Source: Desulfovibrio sp.
GTDB lineage: Bacteria; Desulfobacterota; Desulfovibrionia; Desulfovibrionales; Desulfovibrionaceae
Assembly: GCA_016208105.1 (NCBI GenBank)
Contig: JACQYS010000013.1
Location: forward strand, 124,001 to 188,000
Direction of reading: 5' to 3'
DNA length: 64,000 nucleotides
Position 1 is the first letter of the stretch, and every line of letters begins with the position of its first letter. Shown here one piece after another: positions 23,305 to 35,461 of this stretch. The notes under the pieces were generated by a model that saw nothing but the letters and a program-made list of their open reading frames with translations, made no database searches and was not told where the DNA came from. A program made the position numbers and the translations under genes.

Positions 23305-25287
23305 TTAGCCGAACAGCTTGTCCTTTCCTTCGATGAGGTCCGTCACCACACTCGGATCGGCCAAGGTGGAGGTGTCGCCAAGCTGGCTCACCTCACCTTC
23401 GGCGATCTTGCGCAGGATGCGCCGCATGATCTTGCCGGAGCGAGTCTTGGGCAATCCCTGGGTGAACTGGATGACGTCAGGGGTGGCGATAGGCCCGATC
23501 TCGGTGCGCACATGTTTTTTGAGCGCCGCCAAGAGCTCGTCCGTGGCCTCTATGCCCTCCTTCAGGGTGACGTATGCGTAGATGGCTTGGCCCTTGATGT
23601 CGTGGGGCATGCCCACCACCGCCGCCTCAGCCACATCCGTGTGCGCCACCAGGGCGGACTCGATCTCGGCCGTGCCCATGCGATGGCCGGAAACGTTCAC
23701 CACGTCGTCAACACGGCCCATGATCCAGACATAGCCGTCGGAGTCTATACGAGCCCCGTCGCCGGTCTCATAGGTGCCGGGGAACGCATCGAAGTACTGC
23801 TTCTTGAAGCGATCAGGGTCTCCCCAGATACCGCGCAGCATGCCGGGCCAGGCTTGGGTCTGTACCAGGAAACCTCCCTGCCCGGCCGGAACGCCCTTGC
23901 CGTCCTTGTCCACGATCTTGGGAACTATACCTGGCAGGGGCAGGGTGGCCGAGCCCGGCTTCTGGGGCGTGGCATAGGGCAGGGGCGAGATCATGAGCCC
24001 CCCGGTTTCGGTCTGCCACCAGGTGTCCACGATGGGCAGTTTCCCCTTTCCGATGTTGTCGTGGTACCATATCCAGGCTTCCGGGTTGATGGGCTCGCCA
24101 ACCGACCCAAGGATGCGCAGCGAGGACAGGTCGTGGTTCTGGGTCCATTTCACTCCCTCGCGCATAAGGGCCCGGACGGCAGTGGGAGCGGTGTAGAAAA
24201 TGTTCACCTTGAACTTCTCCACAGTGGCCCAGAAGCGGTCAGGGGAAGGCCAGGTGGGCACTCCTTCGAACATGACAGACGTGGCTCCCAGGGCCAGGGG
24301 GCCGTAGACGATGTAGCTGTGCCCGGTGACCCAGCCGATGTCTGCGGTGCACCAGTGGACGTCCTCGTCGTGGATATCGAACACCAATTGGGTTGTGTGG
24401 GCCACATAGGTCAGGTAGCCGCCCGTGGTGTGAAACACTCCCTTGGGCTTGCCGGTGGAGCCGGATGTGTACAGGATGAAAAGCACGTCCTCGGCGTCCA
24501 TGGGTTCGGCCGGGCATGGCGCCTTCATCTCCGGCTTGGCCATGCACTCGTGCCACCAGAGATCGCGGCCCTCCACGAAATCCACCTGGGTTCCAGCGCT
24601 GTTGTGCACCACCACCTTCTCCACGCAGGGGCATTCCTTGAGGGCCGCGTCCACGTTCACCTTGAGGGGAATGGCCTTGCCCGCGCGGCGCACGGCGTCG
24701 CCGCAGATGACCACCTTGGCCTGGCAGTCGTTGATGCGGTCTCTGAGCGAGTGAGCCGAGAACCCGGCGAACACGATGGAATGGGGCGCTCCTATGCGGG
24801 CGCAAGCGAGCATGGCCACGGCCAACTCCGGGACCATACCCAGGTAGATGGCCACCCGGTCGCCCTTTTTCACTCCAAGACTCTTCAGCACGTTGGCGAA
24901 TTTATTCACCTGATCGTGAAGCATCTGGTAGGTGAGGACCTGTACGTCGCCCTCTTTGTCTCCCTGCCAGACAATGGCCGCCTTGTTGCGCCGGGGACCA
25001 TCCAGATGGCGGTCCAGGCAGTTGTAGGCCACGTTTAACGTGCCCCCGGAAAACCATTTGAAGGAGGCCTTGTCGAAATCACAGTCCATAACCTTGCCAA
25101 AGGGGGAAAACCACGTGAGCAGCTCTTTGGAGCGGTCTCCCCAATAGCCTTCAGGATCTTCCACCGATCTCTTGTATACGGCACGGTATTCGTCGAGGCT
25201 TTTGATATGGGCCCTGGCCTGGTGAGGACCGGTGGGCGGTTCGAAGATGCGATTTTCGTGTTGCATGGATTCAATGTTCTCAGTCAT
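23305..25287 (-). CDS. acs: acetyl-CoA synthetase
   Basis: A 660-residue AMP-forming acetate-CoA ligase converting acetate, ATP and CoA to acetyl-CoA, AMP and diphosphate. The adenylation P-loop reads [11 protein letters not shown], followed by [20 protein letters not shown] and [10 protein letters not shown], whose second tryptophan limits the pocket to short acyl chains. The C-terminal catalytic lysine is in [15 protein letters not shown], the segment subject to acetylation in homologs. I use the ATG with AAGGAG seven bases upstream rather than a longer start. It lies downstream of the ActP-like symporter operon on the same strand, so the block imports and activates acetate. Confidence 0.95.
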
Positions 25288-25336: not shown

Positions 25337-25362
25337 TGCCAAATTTCTAGGTTTATTTGGCA
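25337..25362. promoter_or_regulatory. inverted repeat upstream of acs
   Basis: TGCCAAAT and ATTTGGCA form eight-base arms around a ten-base loop, 50 bases upstream of the acs start codon. It could be an operator or the end of the upstream transcript; no T run follows it on the minus strand. Confidence 0.4.
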
Positions 25363-25390
25363 AGCGGTCAGCCTTTGACGGTGAGCGGTT

Positions 25391-26077
25391 TCAGAATGCT
25401 GGCTGCGGAGCTGCCCTGGGATTCGCCGACGGTGACGCCAGCCTGAGAACAGTCTCCAGCGTGGGATCCTCCCCCTGGCGGGACACCCTCAGAATTGAGA
25501 GAAACCGCTGCAGCACCTGGGCCGTTAGGAAAGCGTCCCCCAGAGCGTCGTGAGCCCCTTTTGGAGAGACGCCCAAAGCCCTGGCCACACTGTAGAGAGT
25601 GGCGTCTTTTAAGGGAAGCTCCTCCAGGAGTTGAGACCCCCTGCCCCCCCTGATGGCCATGTACAGCCCCAAAACATCCAGGCTGCGGTTCTTGGGTGCG
25701 GGCAATCCCAAACGTTTGGTCCACGAGCGCAGAAATGCCATATCCAGCTCCACGTGCCAGCCTGTGAGCACGGCCTCACCGCAGTATTCCAAAAATGCCG
25801 GGAGCGCTTCCTCGATGGGAGGCTTATCCTCAAGCTCCGCAGGGGTGAGTTGGTGGATTCGCACGCTTTCCCCGGATGGCCGGTTTCCCGTTGGCCTGAC
25901 CAGGGCTTTGTAGGTGTCGCCCAGGTCGATGCGCCCGCCATGCATGCGCAGAGCCCCGAAAGACAATATGTCGTCCCGCGAGGGGTCAAGCCCGCCCATC
26001 TCCAGATCGAAGACAACGAATTCAGCCCGCCCCACTGGCGAGTCGCCGTTACGGCTGGACCATGGCCACCATTTCAT
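25391..26077 (-). CDS. DEDDh 3'-5' exonuclease domain protein (DnaQ-like)
   Basis: A 228-residue RNase T/DnaQ-fold exonuclease. Exo I is [10 protein letters not shown] with the D-x-E pair, Exo II is [14 protein letters not shown] with the third aspartate, and Exo III is [16 protein letters not shown] with histidine and the fourth aspartate, so the active site looks complete. Its 5' end overlaps the upstream DUF294-type gene by 29 bases. Stand-alone DnaQ-like proteins of this type are regularly linked to CBS/DUF294 proteins and acetate permeases, and some genomes fuse them. Whether it acts on DNA, RNA or a nucleotide signal is unknown. Confidence 0.88.
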
Positions 26078-27701
26078 CGTGCGCCCTCCCCGCCGCTTTT
26101 CTACACATGCGTTCCATCCCCCGCGCCAGGGGGCCCCGTCTCAGGGGCTCGCCCACCCACTGCCACGCCGTGAGGTATTCCAGAGCGAAGGCAAGCTCCG
26201 GTCCTGTCGGCCTCAACCGTTCAAGGGCCTGGGCACGCTCCACGCTCGAAATGCGGGTGATTCTGCTGCTCAGCGCCCAGCGACGGGCCGTGTCCACCAG
26301 GCATTCGGTCAGGCCCTTCCCGCACTCATCCGGCTTTTCCCGATTCACCAAACCAACCATGGTCCCCATATGGGCCCGGAGCGCCTCCCCCAGCCAGAGC
26401 TGGCCGTGTACCGGACGGAAGTCGAGATACGACGGGTCCTCAGGAGCATGTTGCAGCCAACCGTCCATACGCTCGCGCCACTGTGGCAAGGTACCCCTCC
26501 ATTGGCGGCTTTCGGCCGAAGGCGATTGCGGTGCACCGGCCAGATTCATGATCTCGAAAGCTTCGGACAAAAACGCTCCGAGACGCTCAAACCACTGGTC
26601 CCCATCCGATGTTTCCTCGTGAACCACCGCGTTCCACAGGGGGCACAGGGCCGGGCCTTCCCGTCTGGCCGCCCTGCCCAAGAGTATCAGAGCGTATCCG
26701 GCCGGAGGCGGACCCAGTATCTCCTCGGCCAGTTGGCAGGCCCTAGCGGCCAGGGATTCGCGCAGGCCTCCGACAATACGCCCCAAACTGGACGCTCGCG
26801 CCCCCTCCCGTAGGAGCCCCAGCGCGAGCGGATCCAGCAGGGCGGCCACACCGGCCAGTTCCTCCACCGTCAGCGCCCCGGCGACCTTTGCGGCAAGAGC
26901 GGGTGGGGAACCAACTTGTTTCAGCAGCAGTTCCTGGGCCGAGAGAACCCCGGCCGGCATTCTGCCGGCCATAACCACCACGTGACGCAGATGGTGGCGG
27001 GTCATGGCCATGAGGGCGTCGAAGCAGGACGAAGCGGCATCCACGGACACCACCGGCGAAGTCATCACCTGCTCCACAGGCGTGTCCGGGGCCAGACCCT
27101 GCTCCACCGCCTTGGACCGGAAGTCCCGGTCCGTTATGACGCCGGAGGGACGCCCCTCGCGGCCGAGCACCACCACCGCGTCGCGGTTCGTGGCGCTCAT
27201 GATCCGGGCTGCCTGCTGGATGGTGGTGCCGCATGACACAGGCTCGCCCACCCGCAGGGCCTCGCCCGCAGTGACCATGGCCAGGGGACGCCTGGCCAGC
27301 CAGGCCGGAATTTCCCGGACCAGGCCGGCCAATCCCAGTTCCAGCACCTTGTCCGTGAACCGTTCATCGAGAAAATCGAAGAGCTCCGGTCTCTCTTCCA
27401 GGGCTTGAGACACTCCCTGGGGAGGCAGCAGGTAGCAGACGCTGTCCTCCTCGGCATGGGCTTCCACGGCGGTCCAACCAAGTACAGCGCCCTCCCCGTA
27501 TTCTTCGTCTCCAGCCTTCAAGAGCCCCTTTTTGACCACCAGCACGAACCCTTCGCCAGCTCCCCCAGGGCCCAGAACCTTGGTACCGCAAGGGAAGAAC
27601 TCCAACCCCGCCTTCCTGGCCAGGGCCAAGAGCCTGGGCGGTTCCAGAAAGGACAACGGCGGCGACTCCCGCAGAAATTCGACAACGTCTTCGAGGATCA
27701 T
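26049..27701 (-). CDS. cNMP-binding/CBS/DUF294-type signalling protein with degenerate nucleotidyltransferase
   Basis: A 550-residue cytoplasmic protein: a cyclic-nucleotide-binding-like beta-roll (about residues 15-115), two CBS repeats (about 145-265; VTDRDFRSKAV-like segments), a DUF294 nucleotidyltransferase-like region (about 280-430), and a helical C-terminal domain. At the catalytic motif it reads LGRAARREGPALCPLWNAVV (residues 341-360), lacking the glycine-serine and both aspartates present in its neighbour ([20 protein letters not shown]). It is therefore probably catalytically dead. The ATG overlaps the upstream paralog's stop by four bases (ATGA). A regulatory partner for the intact paralog is likely. 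Confidence 0.85.
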   Translation of the reverse strand: MILEDVVEFLRESPPLSFLEPPRLLALARKAGLEFFPCGTKVLGPGGAGEGFVLVVKKGLLKAGDEEYGEGAVLGWTAVEAHAEEDSVCYLLPPQGVSQALEERPELFDFLDERFTDKVLELGLAGLVREIPAWLARRPLAMVTAGEALRVGEPVSCGTTIQQAARIMSATNRDAVVVLGREGRPSGVITDRDFRSKAVEQGLAPDTPVEQVMTSPVVSVDAASSCFDALMAMTRHHLRHVVVMAGRMPAGVLSAQELLLKQVGSPPALAAKVAGALTVEELAGVAALLDPLALGLLREGARASSLGRIVGGLRESLAARACQLAEEILGPPPAGYALILLGRAARREGPALCPLWNAVVHEETSDGDQWFERLGAFLSEAFEIMNLAGAPQSPSAESRQWRGTLPQWRERMDGWLQHAPEDPSYLDFRPVHGQLWLGEALRAHMGTMVGLVNREKPDECGKGLTECLVDTARRWALSSRITRISSVERAQALERLRPTGPELAFALEYLTAWQWVGEPLRRGPLARGMERMCRKAAGRAHDEMVAMVQP

Positions 27702-29119
27702 GTGAGCAGCCGCAGCGCGTATTTGTTGGATAAAATCGCCTGGAAACCGGCCACTGCCTTGAAACACTCCTTGAGCCGCGACCGTTCCATGCGCGACATC
27801 CGGTCCAGATACACCATACTGTCCGGCTCGCGGCCCTCGGCCAAAGCCTCGGCCTGGAAGCGCAGCCTGAGTTCCTGCATGAACTCCATGGACTGGGTGA
27901 GATCTCCTGCCGTTTCCCCTGAGAGAACCCCCGCCGCTGCCGCACCCAAGAGCCGGGAAGCCGTATCCGTGCGCTCCATGCCGAACTCCAGGGCCAGCAC
28001 CCGCGCTCCCTGGGTCAGGGGGAAAATACCGCCCCGTTTTATGTCCAGTCCCTCGCGGCCCAGATCGGTTTTCTCAGTGGACAAGGTACCGAAAATCGAA
28101 ATCGGCGGTTCGAACCGCACAGCTTCTCGCGCCATGTAGCGAAGCGAGCGGGGATTTTCCCGCACAGCGTGGATAACTGCTTGGCGCAATCCATCAGAGA
28201 GACTTTTTTCCCCGAACACATGGCGCAGGTCGGCAAGGAGTGACAAGGCCAGAACAGCATCCGGGCCGATATCCCTGCCCAGGGTGGCCAGACGGTTTTC
28301 CCACCCGGCCAGGGTCATGCGCCACGATGCATGGTCGGCAGTGACTCCGTGCGGACAAGGCGGCAACCCGGCCTGGTTCAGGATGGCCATCAGGCGCAAT
28401 GCGAAAGACTCGGCCAGATGGATGTCGGCATTTTCCCCCAGTACCAGGGCGTTGTCCTGGTCCGTGGCCAAAAACTGCTCGCGGCGGCCTTCGCTGCCGA
28501 GAACCAACAAGGCCATCATCCCGGGATCCGGCCCGCCCAAAAGGGCCAGCTCCGCAGCGCGCACGAAGAGTTGGTCGCGTACCGCGGCAGCCAGGGCTCC
28601 GGCGCGGGACACGTCTGCTCCCTGTTTGAGCCACAGGGGAAGCAAATCGCCAAGGCCGGCATAGGCCCTGGCCAGAGACTCGCCGTCCGAGGCGTTGGAA
28701 ATGGCCACGGAAAGGGCCACCGGGCTTTCGAGCCTGGCGGCCATGAGGTCCCGCTCCGTGAGCATGGCCTTGGTCCGCCCCTCCCGATCCGTCACCGCGA
28801 GGCGGCGGATGGAGTGGCGGATCATGGCCAGAAACGCCTCCGAGACCAGCTCCTCCTCGGACACGCTCACCACCCCCCGGCTCATCAGTTCCGAAGCCGG
28901 GCAATAGAGGGCTCGCCCATCGGCCACAGCTCCGACGATGTCCCGTTCCGTAAGGATTCCGGCCACGCTCTCAGGCGAACCAACAAGGCAGGCCGTGGCG
29001 CTGGCGGCGCGCATGGCGCGCGCCGCCTCCACCACAGTGGTCAGTTCATCCACGAAGACGGGCTTCTTCAGGGTGAGGCTACCCACCCTGAGGCCCAAAA
29101 AACCATCTTCGCTTGTCAT
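27698..29119 (-). CDS. CBS/DUF294 nucleotidyltransferase-type signalling protein
   Basis: A 473-residue protein with two CBS repeats (about residues 12-130; [12 protein letters not shown] and [13 protein letters not shown]), a DUF294 putative nucleotidyltransferase with an intact motif (G208, S209, R212, E214, D220, D222), and a helical C-terminal substrate domain with [42 protein letters not shown]. The fold is related to GlnD-type uridylyltransferases. Unlike its downstream paralog it lacks the cyclic-nucleotide-like domain. It overlaps the symporter stop codon by four bases, so transporter and signalling protein are translationally coupled. A role in modulating acetate uptake is inferred from context. 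Confidence 0.87.
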
Positions 29120-30663
29120 TCCACGCCCACCCCCAGGTAGTTGCGGATTTTCTGATCCTCATAGCGCTCGCTGGCATCGGCCTCAGGCGCGAGGAGCGAA
29201 CCCAGCCAACCGGCAATGAAAGCCGCGGGCATGGAGATGAGGGCCGGGTTCTTCCAGGGGAAGATGGCCTGCTTGAAGCCCAACACGTCCACCCACACAG
29301 TGGGGGAGATGACGATGAGCCCCACGGCCAGCACGGAACCGGTCACGATTGCGGCGGTAGCGCCGGTTGTGGACATGCCGCGCCACAGAATGGACATGAG
29401 AAGAGCCGGAAAGTTGCCGCTGGCCGCGATGGCAAAGGCCAGGCCCACCATGAAGGCCACGTTCTGGCCCTTGAAAGCGATGCCCAATCCCATTGCCACC
29501 AGACCCAGCACCAGGGTGGCGCGCTTGGCCATCTTCACTTCCTCTTCCTCGGTGGTCTTACCCGACCTGAACACGTTCACGTACAGGTCATGCGAGAAGG
29601 TGGCCGCCCCGGCCAGAGTAAGCCCGGCCACCACGGCCAGGATGGTGGCGAAGGCCACGGCCGCGATGAAGCCAAGGAACATGGTGCCACCGGTCACTTC
29701 GGCCAGAAGCAGGGCCGACATGTTGCCACCCTTGTCGAACTTGGTGATCACGTCCTGACCCACCAACACCATGGCCCCAAAGCCGATGATGAAGGTCAGG
29801 ATGTAGAAGTAGGAGATGAAGCCCGTAGCGTAGAGCACGCTTTTTCTGGCCTGCTCGGCGTCGGGCACGGTGTAGAAACGCATGAGGATGTGGGGCAGCC
29901 CGGCTGTGCCGAACATCAAGGCGATGCCAAGGCTCAGGGCGTCCCAGGGGTTGGAGACCAGCCCGCCGGGTTCAAGAACCTTCTGGCCGTATTTGGCGGC
30001 CGCAGCGGAGAAAAGTTCAGCGGGGTTGAAGCCAAACTTGGCCAACACCAAACCCACCATAACTGAAGCCCCGCCCAAGAGCAGAACGGCCTTTATTATT
30101 TGCACCCAGGTGGTGGCCAGCATGCCACCAAAGAGCACATACAGGATCATCACCGCGCCCACGATTCCCACCGCCAGCTCGTAAGGCAGGCCGAACATCA
30201 GGTTTACCAGGGAGCCCGATCCCACCATCTGCGCAATCAGGTAGAAGCACACCGTCATGAGCGAACCGCAGGAGGCCGCGATGCGGATGGGCTTCTGCTT
30301 GAGGCGGTAGGCCACCACGTCCGCAAAGGTGTACTTGCCAAGGTTGCGGAGGGGCTCTGCGATGAGAAACATGATGAGCGGCCAACCCACCAGAAAGCCG
30401 ATGGAGTAGATGAGCCCGTCGTAGCCCTTGAGGGCCACCAGTCCGGCAATTCCCAGGAACGACGCCGCGGACATGTAGTCCCCGGCCAGGGCCAGGCCGT
30501 TCTGGAAACCAGTGACCGAGCGGCCGGCGGCATAGAAGTCCGAAGCGGTCTTGGACTTTTTGGCCGCAAAATAGGTGATTACCAAGGTGGCGGCCACGAA
30601 CACGAAGAAAAAGATTATGGAAAGGGCGTTTGGCTGCCCGATGGTGGAAGTAAATGTATTCAT
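29116..30663 (-). CDS. actP: sodium:solute symporter, ActP acetate permease-like
   Basis: A 515-residue SSS-family symporter with about thirteen membrane spans. Family marks include [81 protein letters not shown], and [27 protein letters not shown]. It is preceded three bases upstream by a DUF485 gene, the same order as yjcH-actP in enterobacteria, where ActP imports acetate and glycolate. Two DUF294 proteins, an exonuclease and acs follow. It starts behind AAGAGGTAGGC. A related short-chain acid such as pyruvate or propionate is also possible. Confidence 0.9.
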
Positions 30664-30666
30664 TGC

Positions 30667-30963
30667 CTACCTCTTCATGTGGTCGATGATGTCTTTCACG
30701 GTTTTGTCGTAGGTGGTGTTGGCCCAGCGCACGTAAATCCCTGTGAGCACGCAGGCCGAGAGAATGACTCCCAGGCCGATGGGGATGCCTAACGTCATGT
30801 GCTCGCCGATTTTTTGGGACAGGATATTCTTGTTGAATGCCAGTACCAAAATGAATCCGTAGTAAATGACCAGCATGAGCGCTGAAAGGGAAAGGGAAAC
30901 AGACCACTTACTGCGCACGAGGCCTTGGAATTTCTCGTTGTCGATCTTGTGATGGTTACTCAT
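30667..30963 (-). CDS. DUF485 small membrane protein (YjcH-like), symporter partner
   Basis: A 98-residue inner-membrane protein with two spans, SLSLSALMLVIYYGFILVLAF and TLGIPIGLGVILSACVLTGIYVRWAN, and short charged ends. GIPIGLGVI and LTGIYVRWAN match the DUF485 consensus seen in YjcH. It is the first gene of the symporter operon and ends three bases before it. DUF485 proteins are thought to assist the associated symporter. GGAG lies about seven bases before the ATG. Confidence 0.88.
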   Translation of the reverse strand: MSNHHKIDNEKFQGLVRSKWSVSLSLSALMLVIYYGFILVLAFNKNILSQKIGEHMTLGIPIGLGVILSACVLTGIYVRWANTTYDKTVKDIIDHMKR

Positions 30964-31094
30964 GGGGATTCTCCTTATTCACGTTTCGCGGTCAGACCCG
31001 GCATGCTTTCGGGCCGTCCGCGATTTCTATGTAAAGCAGGAGAAAATAAAAAAAAGGTGTGTTTCGGTTAGTGGTTGGGATCAAATGTGTGGAC

Positions 31095-31168
31095 GGTGAA
31101 CGGTTCGAGGAAGCGCTGGTGAACGGCGGGAAAAGGAGCCGTTCACCGGGAAAGAAACGCCGTTTATC
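31095..31168. promoter_or_regulatory. four-box array resembling LytTR binding sites in a divergent promoter region
   Basis: Two copies of GGTGAACGG (31095-31103 and 31118-31126) are followed by two boxes in opposite orientation, CCGTTCACC (31139-31147) and CCGTTTATC (31160-31168). The downstream pair is separated by 12 bases and the upstream pair by 14. LytTR proteins bind nine-base direct repeats with a GTT core and 12-13-base spacing. The array lies between the symporter operon and the AbrB/LytTR/acs genes. Apart from this array, the 379-base gap 30964-31342 shows no element I recognise. Confidence 0.6.
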
Positions 31169-31342
31169 GGCTAAGCGCATGAATCCTGGCTACTTGGTTC
31201 TTTCCACCCGCGTATCGAACTCGCCGGATGGGCCCTTGCCATCCCCGGCTTGCGCCCGGTATGTTTGAGTCCAGCTCAACTTCAACTCCGCTCGCCCATC
31301 CCACGCGGCGGCCGGCCCGCAGGTCCCCCTGGAACAACGGCA

Positions 31343-32440
31343 ATGTCCTTTTCGAAACTCGCCCTGCAATGGGCGGCGCTCATTTTCTTCTCTTTATCCC
31401 TGTCCTGGGTCCTGACCTGGGCTGAATTCCCCGCCGCGCTGCTGCTTGGCCCCATGCTCTGCGGCGTTGCCGTCGGGCTTCGCGGGGCCTCCATACGTCT
31501 CCCGCGCTGGGCCTTCACCGGCGCCCAGGCGGTCATCGGCTGCCAGGTTGCCCAGGCCATCACTGTCTCCATCCTCCTGTCCATCGCCCACGGCTGGCTG
31601 GTGATGCTCGCGGTGGTGGGCACCACCATCGCTGCCGGAGGCGTGGTCGGCTGGGTGTTGACTCGATACGGCGCCCTGCCGGGCAACACTGCCGCCTGGG
31701 GCTCCTCGCCCGGAGGAGCAGCCGCCATGACGGCCATGTCCGAGGAATACGGGGCGGACGCCCGGCTCGTGGCCTTCATGCAGTATCTGCGGGTGTTCAT
31801 CGTGGTTCTGACCGCCTCGGCCGTCTCCCGGGTTTTGATCGGTTCCCAGCCCACGGCCGCAGGATCGCCCGCTCCCTTGATCGATCTGGGCTTGAACGCC
31901 CCGCTCCTTCCCGTGCTCGAAACTCTGGCCGTCATACTTGCCGGGCCCCTGATCGGTCTCAAGTTGCGGATTCCTGCAGGGGCCATGCTTGTCCCTCTGG
32001 TGATGGGCAGCATCCTCAACAGTTCCGGCACTGTTTCCATCAACGTGCCGCACTGGCTGTCCGGATCGGCTTACGCTTGCCTGGGCTGGTACATTGGCCT
32101 GCGTTTCACCAGAGGCGTGGTCCTGCATGTGTACCGGGCCATCCCCCAGCTTCTGCTCTCGACGTTTTTGCTCATCGGCCTTTGCTGTATTTCCGCCCTG
32201 GCTCTCAACCATCTTCTTGGCATAAGCGGACTTACCGCCTACTTGGCCACCAGCCCAGGCGGCCTGGATTCCATCGCCATCATCGCCATGGGCAGCGACT
32301 CGGACGCGGCTTTCGTGCTGTCCATGCAGACTCTCAGGCTTTTCGCGGTCATCCTCACCGGACCTTACATCGCCAGGCTGGTCTGCCGTTTCGCCGCGCC
32401 CTGCGAAAAACCAGGCCCTGCTGACGGCAAAAAAATCTGA
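31343..32440 (+). CDS. AbrB-family (TIGR03082-type) integral membrane protein
   Basis: A 365-residue membrane protein with two homologous halves of about five spans each, the AbrB duplication family. The repeated pattern LLLGPMLCGVAVGLRG / PRWAFTGAQAVIGCQVAQAI and PAGAMLVPLVMGSILNSSG / LSGSAYACLGWYIGLRF, plus WGSSPGGAAAMTAMSEEYGADARLVAFMQYLRVFIVVLTAS and its second-half counterpart ATSPGGLDSIAIIAMGS, is diagnostic. It is unrelated to the DNA-binding AbrB despite the shared name. Homologs include putative ammonia-monooxygenase-linked and regulatory membrane proteins; function is unknown. It is first in a run with lytTR and acs. Confidence 0.82.
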   Translation: MSFSKLALQWAALIFFSLSLSWVLTWAEFPAALLLGPMLCGVAVGLRGASIRLPRWAFTGAQAVIGCQVAQAITVSILLSIAHGWLVMLAVVGTTIAAGGVVGWVLTRYGALPGNTAAWGSSPGGAAAMTAMSEEYGADARLVAFMQYLRVFIVVLTASAVSRVLIGSQPTAAGSPAPLIDLGLNAPLLPVLETLAVILAGPLIGLKLRIPAGAMLVPLVMGSILNSSGTVSINVPHWLSGSAYACLGWYIGLRFTRGVVLHVYRAIPQLLLSTFLLIGLCCISALALNHLLGISGLTAYLATSPGGLDSIAIIAMGSDSDAAFVLSMQTLRLFAVILTGPYIARLVCRFAAPCEKPGPADGKKI

Positions 32441-32521
32441 TCTCAGCTCCTTTCCTGCCGCTCCGCCCTTGCCCGCCCCCTGGTTTCCCGCTAACTAGGG
32501 CGAAATCTTGGAGCCTTGTCC

Positions 32522-33394
32522 ATGTCGCAGGTAAAAACCCTCATCGTCCATGCCGACCCCGCCGTGCGCGCCGGACTGCGCCAGCTTTTGTCCGGCATGG
32601 ATTCCCTGCGCGTATTGGGAGCGGCGGCCACCGCTTTCGAAGCCCTTGAGATGCTCGAGGCCATCCCCTACGGTGTTTTCTTCCTGAGTCCGGACCTGCC
32701 AGGCCCCACGTCCGGCATGGAGCTTGCCCAGATTCTCTCCGGACGCCGCCAGCGCCCGGCCCTGGTCTTCGTGGCCCCGGACGAATCCCAGGCCTACAAG
32801 GCCTTCGAGCTGGGGGCTATCGACTATCTCATTTGGCCAGTGTCCTCCCAGCGATTGGACACCACCCTCTCCAGGCTCAAAGGGCTCTCTTCCGGTTTCA
32901 AGCAGGCCCAGCCAGCCGGCGCCTGGGTGGAGGAACGTTCAGCCGCGGCCGAGGACGAGCAGCAGACCCTCTCGCTGCCCATCGAGGACGAGGAGGAGGG
33001 CCCCTTCTTCTCGGCTCTGAAGCAGGCCTGGGACTTGAACCAGAAGAAAAAGCCCCTGGACATCGAAAAGCTGCCCATCACCCTGGACGGGCGCACCCTG
33101 CTTCTGCCCTACCCGCAGATTCTCTTCGTGGAAGCCTACGAGGACTATTCCTTCGTGCACACGGCCCAGCAAAAATACCTCACTTCCTATCGCCTGAAGA
33201 ACCTGGAGGAGCGTCTTGGACCGCATGGTTTCTTCCGGGTCCACCGCAAGTTCCTGGTGAACCTGGAGGCCGTGACCGAGATCGCCAGCCTGCCCGGGGG
33301 CCAGTTCATGCTGCGCACCCAGGGCAAGACCAGGATCGAGCTGCCAATCAGCAGAAGAAGGATCGGCGAGTTAAAACAGGTGCTGGGTTTATGA
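32522..33394 (+). CDS. LytTR-type response regulator with degenerate receiver domain
   Basis: A 290-residue regulator: receiver-like fold (residues 1-125), a charged linker rich in Glu (about 130-175), and a LytTR DNA-binding domain (about 185-290; ILFVEAYEDYSFVHTAQQKYL, FFRVHRKFLVNLEAVTEI). The receiver has lost its chemistry: the acidic pair is reduced to H10-A11-D12, the phosphoacceptor is serine (S56 in FLSPDLP), the switch threonine is alanine (A85), and the conserved lysine is tryptophan (W105 in DYLIWPV). No LytS kinase is nearby. It probably acts constitutively or through another signal. GGAG lies nine bases before the ATG. Confidence 0.87.
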   Translation: MSQVKTLIVHADPAVRAGLRQLLSGMDSLRVLGAAATAFEALEMLEAIPYGVFFLSPDLPGPTSGMELAQILSGRRQRPALVFVAPDESQAYKAFELGAIDYLIWPVSSQRLDTTLSRLKGLSSGFKQAQPAGAWVEERSAAAEDEQQTLSLPIEDEEEGPFFSALKQAWDLNQKKKPLDIEKLPITLDGRTLLLPYPQILFVEAYEDYSFVHTAQQKYLTSYRLKNLEERLGPHGFFRVHRKFLVNLEAVTEIASLPGGQFMLRTQGKTRIELPISRRRIGELKQVLGL

Positions 33395-33532: not shown

Positions 33533-35461
33533 ATGGAAACCGGCCTCGTCGATAGCCTTCTGCGGGAAGAACGGGTCTTCCGCCCCCTGCCCCAGGTGGT
33601 GCGCGAGGCCAACATGGGCCAGCCCGAACTCAAGGCGGCCCAGAAGCTCGCGGACGCGGACTATCGTCTTTTCTGGGAAGAACAGGCTGCGGACCTCGAC
33701 TGGTTCGAAAAATGGGACCAGGTTCTGGATGATTCCACTCCCCCCTTCTACAAGTGGTTTCTGGGCGGCAAGTGCAACCTGGTCCACAACGCCCTGGACC
33801 GCCACATCTTAACAGCCAACAAGAACAAGCTGGCCATCATCTGGGAAGGCGAATCCGGCGAGTGCCGCAAATACACCTATTACGAACTGTACCGGGAGGT
33901 ATGCCGTTTCGCCAACGCGCTCAGGGCCATGGGCGTGGGCAAGGGCGACCGAATCCTCATTTACCTGCCCCCGCTGCCGGAAACCATCATCTCCATGCTG
34001 GCCGCGGCCAAAATAGGCGCGATACAAACCCTGGTCTTCGCCGGGCACTCGGCCAGGTCGCTTCGCGAGCGGGTGGAAGGCTGCCTCCCCAAAATCATCG
34101 TCACGGCAGACGGATTCTACCGCAACGGACGGGTGATCAACTTAAAATCCGTGGTGGACGAAGCCCTGTTCGGCCAGGGCTGCGACTGCGTGCAGAGCGT
34201 CATCGTGGTGCACCGGGCCGGCGTGGAACTGGACATGGTGGAGCCGCGCGACCTGCGCTACGAAGACCTGCTCCGCCAGGAGCGTCCCCAGTCACCCACC
34301 GAGGTCATGGACGCCGAGGATCCGCTGTTTCTTCTCTATACGTCCGGAGCCACGGGCAAGCCCAAGGGGCTTTTGCACACCCACGGCGGCTACATGGTGG
34401 GCGTGCACTCCACTTACCGCTGGGTCATGGACGTCAAACCCACCGATCTTTACCTGTGCACTGCCGACCCTGGCTGGATCACTGGCCACAGTTATGTGGT
34501 TTTCGGCCCGCTCATGGCCGGAACAACCGTGGTGCTCTACGAGGGCCATCCGCTTTACCCTCAGGCCGACCGGCTCTGGGCTATCGTTGCCCGCTACGGC
34601 GTGACCATCCTCTACACCACGCCCACGCTCATACGCATGCTCATGCGCTACGGCGGCCAGTATCCCAAGAAACACGACCTCTCCTCCCTGCGCCTTCTGG
34701 GCAGCGTGGGCGAGCCCATCGGGCCCGAACCCTGGGTGTGGTTCCACAAATACATCGGGCGTAGCGAATGCCCGCTGTTGGACACCTGGTGGCAGACCGA
34801 GACCGGCATGTTCATGGTGTCGCCGCTGCCCATATCCCTCTTGAAGCCCGGTTCGGCCGGTCGGCCGCTGCCCGGCGTGGACGTGGACGTGGTGGACCGC
34901 AACGGCAACCAGGCCGGACCCGACAAGGGCGGCTTCGTGGTGGTGCGCAAACCCTGGCCCGCCATGGCCCGCACCTTGTGGAACGACGACGAGGGATACA
35001 AGAAAGCCTACTGGGAAAAGATACCTGGCTTTTATTTCGCGGGAGACGTGGCCCGCAAGGACGAGGACGGCTACTTCTGGTTCCAGGGCCGGGCCGACGA
35101 CGTGTTGAACATCGGCGGGCACCGCATCGGTCCGGCCGAAGTGGAGGCGGCGCTCGTGGCCCACAAGGCCGTGGCCGAGGCAGCGGTGATCGGCGTGCCA
35201 GACCCCATAAAGGGCGAGGCCGCCAAGTGCTTCGTGGTGCGCCGGGAAGGATGGGAGAAGGATTTCGACAGCGAGGACGAACTCATCAAGGCCCTCACCA
35301 GCCACGTGAAGCGTGAACTCGGTCCCTTCGTGTCCATCAAGGCCATCGCCTTCCGCGACAACCTGCCCCACACCAAGAGCGGCAAGATTCTGCGCAGGCT
35401 CCTGAAAGCCGAAGAAACCGGGGCCGCCCCTGGCGACTTGTCCACGCTGGAAGAGGAATAA
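33533..35461 (+). CDS. acsA: acetyl-CoA synthetase-like AMP-dependent ligase (second copy)
   Basis: A 642-residue acyl-CoA ligase of the acetyl-CoA synthetase subfamily. The P-loop is YTSGATGKPKG, followed by [33 protein letters not shown] and [15 protein letters not shown], whose tryptophan again implies a short acyl substrate such as acetate or propionate. The catalytic lysine lies in LPHTKSGKILRRLL. It is clearly diverged from the copy at 23.3-25.3 kb, so it is not a recent duplication. It follows the LytTR regulator across hairpin repeats. Division of labour between the two ligases is unknown. Confidence 0.92.
   Translation: METGLVDSLLREERVFRPLPQVVREANMGQPELKAAQKLADADYRLFWEEQAADLDWFEKWDQVLDDSTPPFYKWFLGGKCNLVHNALDRHILTANKNKLAIIWEGESGECRKYTYYELYREVCRFANALRAMGVGKGDRILIYLPPLPETIISMLAAAKIGAIQTLVFAGHSARSLRERVEGCLPKIIVTADGFYRNGRVINLKSVVDEALFGQGCDCVQSVIVVHRAGVELDMVEPRDLRYEDLLRQERPQSPTEVMDAEDPLFLLYTSGATGKPKGLLHTHGGYMVGVHSTYRWVMDVKPTDLYLCTADPGWITGHSYVVFGPLMAGTTVVLYEGHPLYPQADRLWAIVARYGVTILYTTPTLIRMLMRYGGQYPKKHDLSSLRLLGSVGEPIGPEPWVWFHKYIGRSECPLLDTWWQTETGMFMVSPLPISLLKPGSAGRPLPGVDVDVVDRNGNQAGPDKGGFVVVRKPWPAMARTLWNDDEGYKKAYWEKIPGFYFAGDVARKDEDGYFWFQGRADDVLNIGGHRIGPAEVEAALVAHKAVAEAAVIGVPDPIKGEAAKCFVVRREGWEKDFDSEDELIKALTSHVKRELGPFVSIKAIAFRDNLPHTKSGKILRRLLKAEETGAAPGDLSTLEEE

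Follow-up and report, generated by a model that had tools for sequence, protein, structure and literature searches.

A five-box LytTR-type array at a symporter promoter and a candidate acetate regulon in Desulfovibrionaceae

Introduction

Most LytTR regulators are reported to bind upstream of the -35 element and to activate transcription (PMC11347149). AgrA-type activators bind 9-bp direct repeats that share a GTT core and occur in pairs with 10–13 bp between them (PMC11347149), and the AgrA site is centered at about -60 (PMC4227749). The sites of RcoM and CoxC comprise three direct repeats of TTCNNGCA, 12–13 bp apart, and these regulators sense CO through haem or MHYT domains (PMC11347149). 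With respect to acetate metabolism, the closest described regulator is DVU0749 of Desulfovibrio vulgaris, which shares an operon with an acetyl-CoA synthetase gene, has a receiver domain without the phosphorylation aspartate and, according to its authors, has no adjacent kinase (PMC3333781). A DAP-chip experiment, performed blind without a positive control target, assigned it four genes or operons as in vitro targets, among them acs (DVU2969) and DVU0443-0448, which lies at a separate locus and is described as a possible transporter or signal transduction protein (PMC3333781). The main text of that report gives no motif for the regulator, and the passage on its targets names no hydrogenase (PMC3333781). 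Finally, regulation of acs together with a symporter-like component is known from CrbS/CrbR, a kinase and response regulator pair; the available text of the reports on it contains no LytTR term (PMC5436829, PMC5715377).

Here we describe a related locus in a 64,000-nucleotide stretch of Desulfovibrio sp. DNA, hereafter the window. As in the case of DVU0749, a protein with receiver and LytTR domains is encoded beside acs, but here the symporter operon is also a neighbor of the regulator and has a five-box array at its promoter, and an Ech-type hydrogenase operon carries boxes elsewhere in the genome. The array shares 9-bp direct repeats, the GTT core and a 12-bp spacer with AgrA-type sites and differs from them in its mixed orientation, in two longer spacers of 14 and 20 bp next to the 12-bp one and in a proximal box that lies nearer the promoter. 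Ech promoters of the same genus, with three boxes at a 21-bp period, recall the RcoM/CoxC arrangement, although the box sequence is a different one and the regulator carries a receiver-like domain rather than a CO-sensing one. LytTR sites of this kind are already known, but neither the present array nor its set of genes appears to have been characterized before. In the literature searched we found no report of a LytTR acetate regulon and none of an Ech link to such a regulon.

Results and discussion

The box array and its gene neighborhood

The array separates two divergent transcription units. On the minus strand, the symporter operon opens with a gene for a DUF485 protein (30667..30963), followed by a sodium:solute symporter (29116..30663). 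The symporter comes closest to the models of acetate symporter ActP and stays just under their cut-offs, scoring 746 bits with the subfamily model (cut-off 750) and 673 bits with the equivalog (cut-off 1099); it exceeds the cut-off for the general symporter superfamily only. Further along the same strand lie genes for a CBS/DUF294 nucleotidyltransferase-like protein (27698..29119) and a second CBS/DUF294 protein (26049..27767), another open reading frame (25391-26077) and acs2, a second acetyl-CoA synthetase gene (23356..25287, ATG start taken from the sequence). On the plus strand, the divergent unit encodes an AbrB-family membrane protein (31343..32440), the LytTR regulator, whose receiver domain is devoid of phosphorylation residues (32516..33394), and the acetyl-CoA synthetase acs1 (33533..35461).

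An earlier note on this DNA had described four boxes between the two units, two facing left and two facing right, and the window sequence bears out their positions and spacers. The forward strand carries GGTGAACGG twice, at 31095-31103 and 31118-31126, with a spacer of 14 bp; on the minus strand these are boxes D and C, respectively, both CCGTTCACC and both facing the symporter. Boxes B (CCGTTCACC, 31139-31147) and A (CCGTTTATC, 31160-31168) face AbrB on the plus strand with a spacer of 12 bp. Start-to-start distances are thus 23 (D-C), 21 (C-B) and 21 bp (B-A), and the inner boxes B and C are exact inverted copies of each other, 12 bp apart. The exact 9-mer occurs three times in the whole window on both strands, and all three copies fall in the array, within a span of 53 bp. 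First-order Markov simulation of the window predicted a mean of 0.75 exact copies, and none of 300 simulated windows held two within 60 bp, which rules out chance as the origin of the array. Copies with at most one mismatch were not enriched across the window (23 found, 19.9 expected), so that the signal resides in the clustering and the boxes are not a general window-wide repeat.

The note had also regarded the array as symmetric, and this did not hold. The left pair has a spacer of 14 bp, a period of 23 instead of the conserved 21, and a fifth, promoter-proximal box belongs to the symporter side. This box E (CCACTAACC followed by GAAAC; 31066..31074, minus strand) is degenerate in the window and was therefore overlooked, but its counterpart is clearer in the other six genomes of the genus, reading CCGCTCGCC or CCGTTGGCC followed by GAAAC. 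Symporter-facing boxes are consequently placed 23 bp (C/D) and 29 bp (D/E) apart from start to start. Against the 10–13 bp published for LytTR spacers (PMC11347149), the 12 bp of A/B lie inside the range, and the 14 bp of C/D and 20 bp of D/E lie outside it. The array contains a direct pair of 9-bp repeats with the GTT core, and its boxes are very probably LytTR sites.

The array within Fundidesulfovibrio

The genus of the window's genome, which together with six congeners we took as Fundidesulfovibrio, encodes the symporter in all seven genomes. The core of the symporter promoter is likewise common to 7/7: an outward pair A/B at 21 bp, in which B reads CCGTTCACC throughout, a box facing inward at 21 bp from B, and the proximal box with GAAAC after it. 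The sequence of C varies, and C/D is apparently a single box in two of the seven genomes (L136, L137), which carry four boxes in total. Two others (L132, L133) carry seven, apparently after partial duplication of the array. Outside the genus, one symporter promoter (genome G023, locus L141) shows a run of boxes, nearly all of them facing the symporter, whose distances include 20–21 bp.

Four congeners retain the outward pair in a different neighborhood. In G094, G009 and G050 the LytTR-acs locus and the symporter are found on different contigs, and in G118, which is 66% complete, no LytTR orthologue was found; in all four, the 1.5 kb upstream of the symporter showed no homologue of AbrB, LytTR or acs. 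The array is instead neighbored by an EamA-type gene pointing toward it and ending about 70 bp before it (G094), by an RCC1-repeat gene in the same direction ending about 700 bp away (G009) or, as far as could be seen, only by short unassigned open reading frames (G050, G118). Since A/B is kept in these genomes without the right-hand genes, it would serve the symporter promoter too, or instead. On this comparison the outward pair is not maintained solely for the divergent acs unit, contrary to the idea of one pair per direction, and the array appears to belong first to the symporter promoter. The suggested link to AbrB is similarly local: AbrB is directly adjacent to the array in the window's genome only, and about 0.5 kb off in one other of the seven.

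Position of the boxes relative to promoters

Using a -10 matrix, we identified a candidate -10 element of the symporter operon (TTTACA, 31030..31035, minus strand) 30 bp after box E. In the same scan, controlled with 300 shuffles, the best -10-like hexamer fell 29–34 bp past the proximal box at 17 of the 46 acs regions (5.0 on average and at most 12 after shuffling), at 6 of the 13 symporter promoters (1.2 and at most 5) and at 1 of the 7 lytTR regions (0.8 and at most 3). Provided that the hexamer is right, the proximal box is located at about -44 to -52.

Rightward of box A, no -10-like hexamer was found at 29–34 bp. A weak candidate promoter, CTACTT-N17-TATCGA (31190..31218, plus strand), lies on the AbrB side 44 bp after box A, and for this reason the right pair may drive AbrB-LytTR-acs1 in the window's species. 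Three congeners with a pair before lytTR have TTGCSG-N17-TAYSAM 43 bp beyond that pair; with the -10 of lytTR promoters at 43 and not 30–33 bp, no single geometry applies. Visual inspection of two congeners with the same arrangement (L040, L042) revealed no such promoter on the AbrB side.

Conservation across the family

We surveyed 149 genomes of the family, 87 of which encode a LytTR orthologue (E <= 1e-58). From 75 loci outside the genus, 134 regions were extracted (75 before lytTR, 59 between lytTR and acs; regions shorter than 50 bp were dropped) and scanned with a matrix built from the genus's own boxes. A direct pair pointing toward acs at exactly 21 bp start-to-start was present in 46/59 acs-upstream regions of other genera. 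The next most frequent spacings there were 14 bp (15 regions), 28 bp (7) and 11 bp (6), and other orientations reached at most 6. Such recurrence of a 9-bp repeat with a 12-bp spacer agrees with the earlier reading of the boxes as LytTR-type direct repeats, and the consensus before acs is CCGTTYRCC-N12-CCGYTKRCC-GAAT. Counted by locus, 47/75 outside the genus have the 21-bp pair and 28/75 have none at the threshold used. Regions upstream of lytTR showed no excess (4/75 with a pair), leaving a pair before lytTR unsupported as a family-wide rule. Among more distant relatives, represented by 20 loci chosen from 76 named ones for titles that pointed outside the family, 12/20 had the 21-bp pair, followed by spacings of 20 and 28 bp with 6 each.

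The pattern also co-occurs with the regulator. Exact pairs were found in 27/87 genomes with the orthologue and 0/62 without, and pairs with at most one mismatch in 50/87 and 4/62, respectively, an association that is partly built in, as the pattern derives from LytTR-linked loci. One of the four orthologue-free genomes with a near-match is an incomplete congener.

By comparison with relatives from the genus of D. vulgaris, the window's LytTR regulator appears to correspond to DVU0749. In that genus (g38, taken as Nitratidesulfovibrio), acs2, which is 70–71% identical to that of the window, is preceded by AATTTCACC-N12-CCGTTCACC-GAAAAG in 8/8 genomes; [CT]C[GA]TTCACC-GAAAGT precedes the symporter operon, again in 8/8. 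We take DVU0443-0448 to be this symporter operon. No pair was detected at the acs beside LytTR in the 6/6 loci of that genus that we read, which are among the 28 without a 21-bp pair.

The receiver domain of the LytTR regulator

Alignment of 81 orthologous LytTR regulators (that of the window and those of 80 fetched loci) revealed that the phosphorylation aspartate is absent from all 81, being replaced by glycine (60), alanine (14), serine (5), proline (1) or valine (1). The lysine expected at position 107 is likewise absent from 81/81 (tryptophan 64, phenylalanine 14, leucine 2, tyrosine 1). In the window's protein the active-site positions read His12, Ala13, Asp14, Ser58, Ala87 and Trp107, and the set that defines a phosphorylation-dependent response regulator, namely the aspartate, the acidic pair, the threonine or serine and the lysine, is missing. 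As conventional phosphorylation is not open to this receiver, control is probably exerted by something other than a partner kinase. At the same time, His12 is invariant (81/81), Asp14 is kept in 78/81 and an aromatic residue occupies position 107 in 79/81; preservation of these residues in the pocket of a dead receiver suggests a different ligand.

Alternative readings of the array

We consider it likely that the symporter operon has its regulatory region in the array, that the LytTR regulator (32516-33394) binds there and that the regulon includes acs and probably ech. The neighboring protein had already been put forward as the natural binder, and that proposal gains from the recurrence of pairs beside its orthologues and from the in vitro binding of the orthologue DVU0749 to acs and DVU0443-0448 (PMC3333781). 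According to our model, the regulator would be an activator that binds CCGTTYRCC boxes of 9 bp pairwise, two helical turns (21 bp) apart, with the box nearest the promoter ending about 30–33 bp before the -10, a position that would allow recruitment of RNA polymerase. In the window's species the outward pair A/B probably also drives AbrB-LytTR-acs1, in which case the regulator would act on its own gene. The earlier proposal lets two LytTR dimers bind independently, each to a direct pair and each for one divergent unit, and links acetate import to AbrB-LytTR-acs. The right-facing pair speaks in its favor: it has the canonical 21-bp period and a candidate promoter at 44 bp, comparable with the 43 bp in the lytTR promoters of three congeners, and in the window's genome neither lytTR nor acs1 has a box pair of its own. 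The left pair does not, as its period is 23 and a conserved fifth box follows, and even the right pair lacks a -10-like hexamer 29–34 bp past box A and persists in the four genomes without AbrB, LytTR or acs nearby. The fifth box, the 14-bp spacer and the retention of A/B without right-hand genes rule out the symmetric scheme as a complete account, and overall we regard two independent dimers as a doubtful explanation.

The number of boxes and their occurrence in both orientations could also point to a repressor that oligomerizes along all five boxes and keeps both promoters shut until an acetate-related signal releases it, similar to CoxC at PcoxB; CoxC is a known LytTR repressor with three direct repeats (PMC11347149). 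Such a mechanism is unlikely, however, because the proximal boxes end about 30–33 bp before the -10, upstream of the expected -35 and without overlap, and because binding upstream of -35 goes with activation in most LytTR regulators (PMC11347149). It is more improbable still that the boxes are owned by another regulator, whether an unrelated factor or one of the genome's two further LytTR proteins, and that their neighborhood is coincidental. The genome does encode three LytTR domains, and near-matches exist in four orthologue-free genomes, but the pair lies beside the orthologue's own gene or acs in 47/75 loci outside the genus, none of the 62 orthologue-free genomes has an exact pair, and in vitro the corresponding genes were bound by DVU0749 (PMC3333781).

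The candidate regulon and the Ech-type hydrogenase

In the window's genome, a search for the exact pair pattern returned four matches and none in the control: one in this array, one before acs2 and two overlapping ones at an Ech-type hydrogenase operon. The acs2 pair, CCGCTCACC-N12-CCGCTTGCC (25359..25388, minus strand), which the earlier note overlooked, is direct, lies 71 bp before the ATG and is found in 7/7 genomes of the genus. Across these seven genomes the exact pattern gave 29 matches against 11 in the control, distributed among ech (14), acs2 (7), the array (3), lytTR (2) and other places (3). Allowing three mismatches genome-wide performed no better than the control (12 matches compared with 10).

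The ech operon is preceded by three boxes 21 bp apart in 7/7 genomes of the genus, and in the window's genome the site lies at 286287-286337 of contig C19 with an HlyD-type gene in the opposite direction. The large subunit matches the [NiFe] hydrogenase and complex I 49-kDa families; the name Ech is our own reading, because EchA falls below the cut-offs of the related antiporter and hydrogenase-4 models. Invariant positions were far more frequent in boxes than in spacers (25/27 compared with 2/24 at ech, 17/18 compared with 2/12 at acs2), but these counts are biased, as the sites were located by the box pattern, and only the fixed spacing carries weight. Outside the genus a similar pair was found at 1/30 ech loci, so the link is recent or lineage-specific and the Ech connection is unsupported as a family-wide rule.

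With boxes before acs2 and the Ech-type operon in 7/7 genomes, the regulon would combine acetate import and activation with, probably, a ferredoxin-linked hydrogenase. Such a combination would fit cells that grow on hydrogen and take their carbon from acetate. Under these conditions acetyl-CoA must be reductively carboxylated to pyruvate, and, extrapolating from known biochemistry, ferredoxin reduced by Ech would feed pyruvate synthesis. Cultivation of Desulfovibrio on hydrogen with acetate carbon is established practice, and D. alaskensis G20 is said to be without Ech (PMC4215793). We tentatively suggest that the dead receiver might be a direct sensor of a metabolite (acetate, acetyl-phosphate or the level of acetyl-CoA), which would turn a two-component regulator into a one-component master switch, with growth on hydrogen and acetate under its control; it would govern acetate import, two acetyl-CoA synthetases and, in Fundidesulfovibrio, an Ech hydrogenase possibly supplying reduced ferredoxin; the multi-box array might then give a cooperative bidirectional response.

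The boxes offer a precise candidate cis-element for a regulator that is known, in the literature searched, only from a blind in vitro target list, and they would unite the uptake and activation of acetate in a single small regulon, which in one genus also takes in an energy-converting hydrogenase. This makes testable the signal perceived by a phosphorylation-dead receiver, the co-regulation of acetate assimilation and ferredoxin supply in sulfate reducers and the workings of a mixed-orientation LytTR array.

The ech promoter of the window's genome additionally holds an inverted repeat, AAGGAATT-TC-AATTCCTT, between its -35-like and -10-like elements, about 150–200 bp before echA. Its sequence is varied in the other genomes, and it is possibly the site of another regulator.
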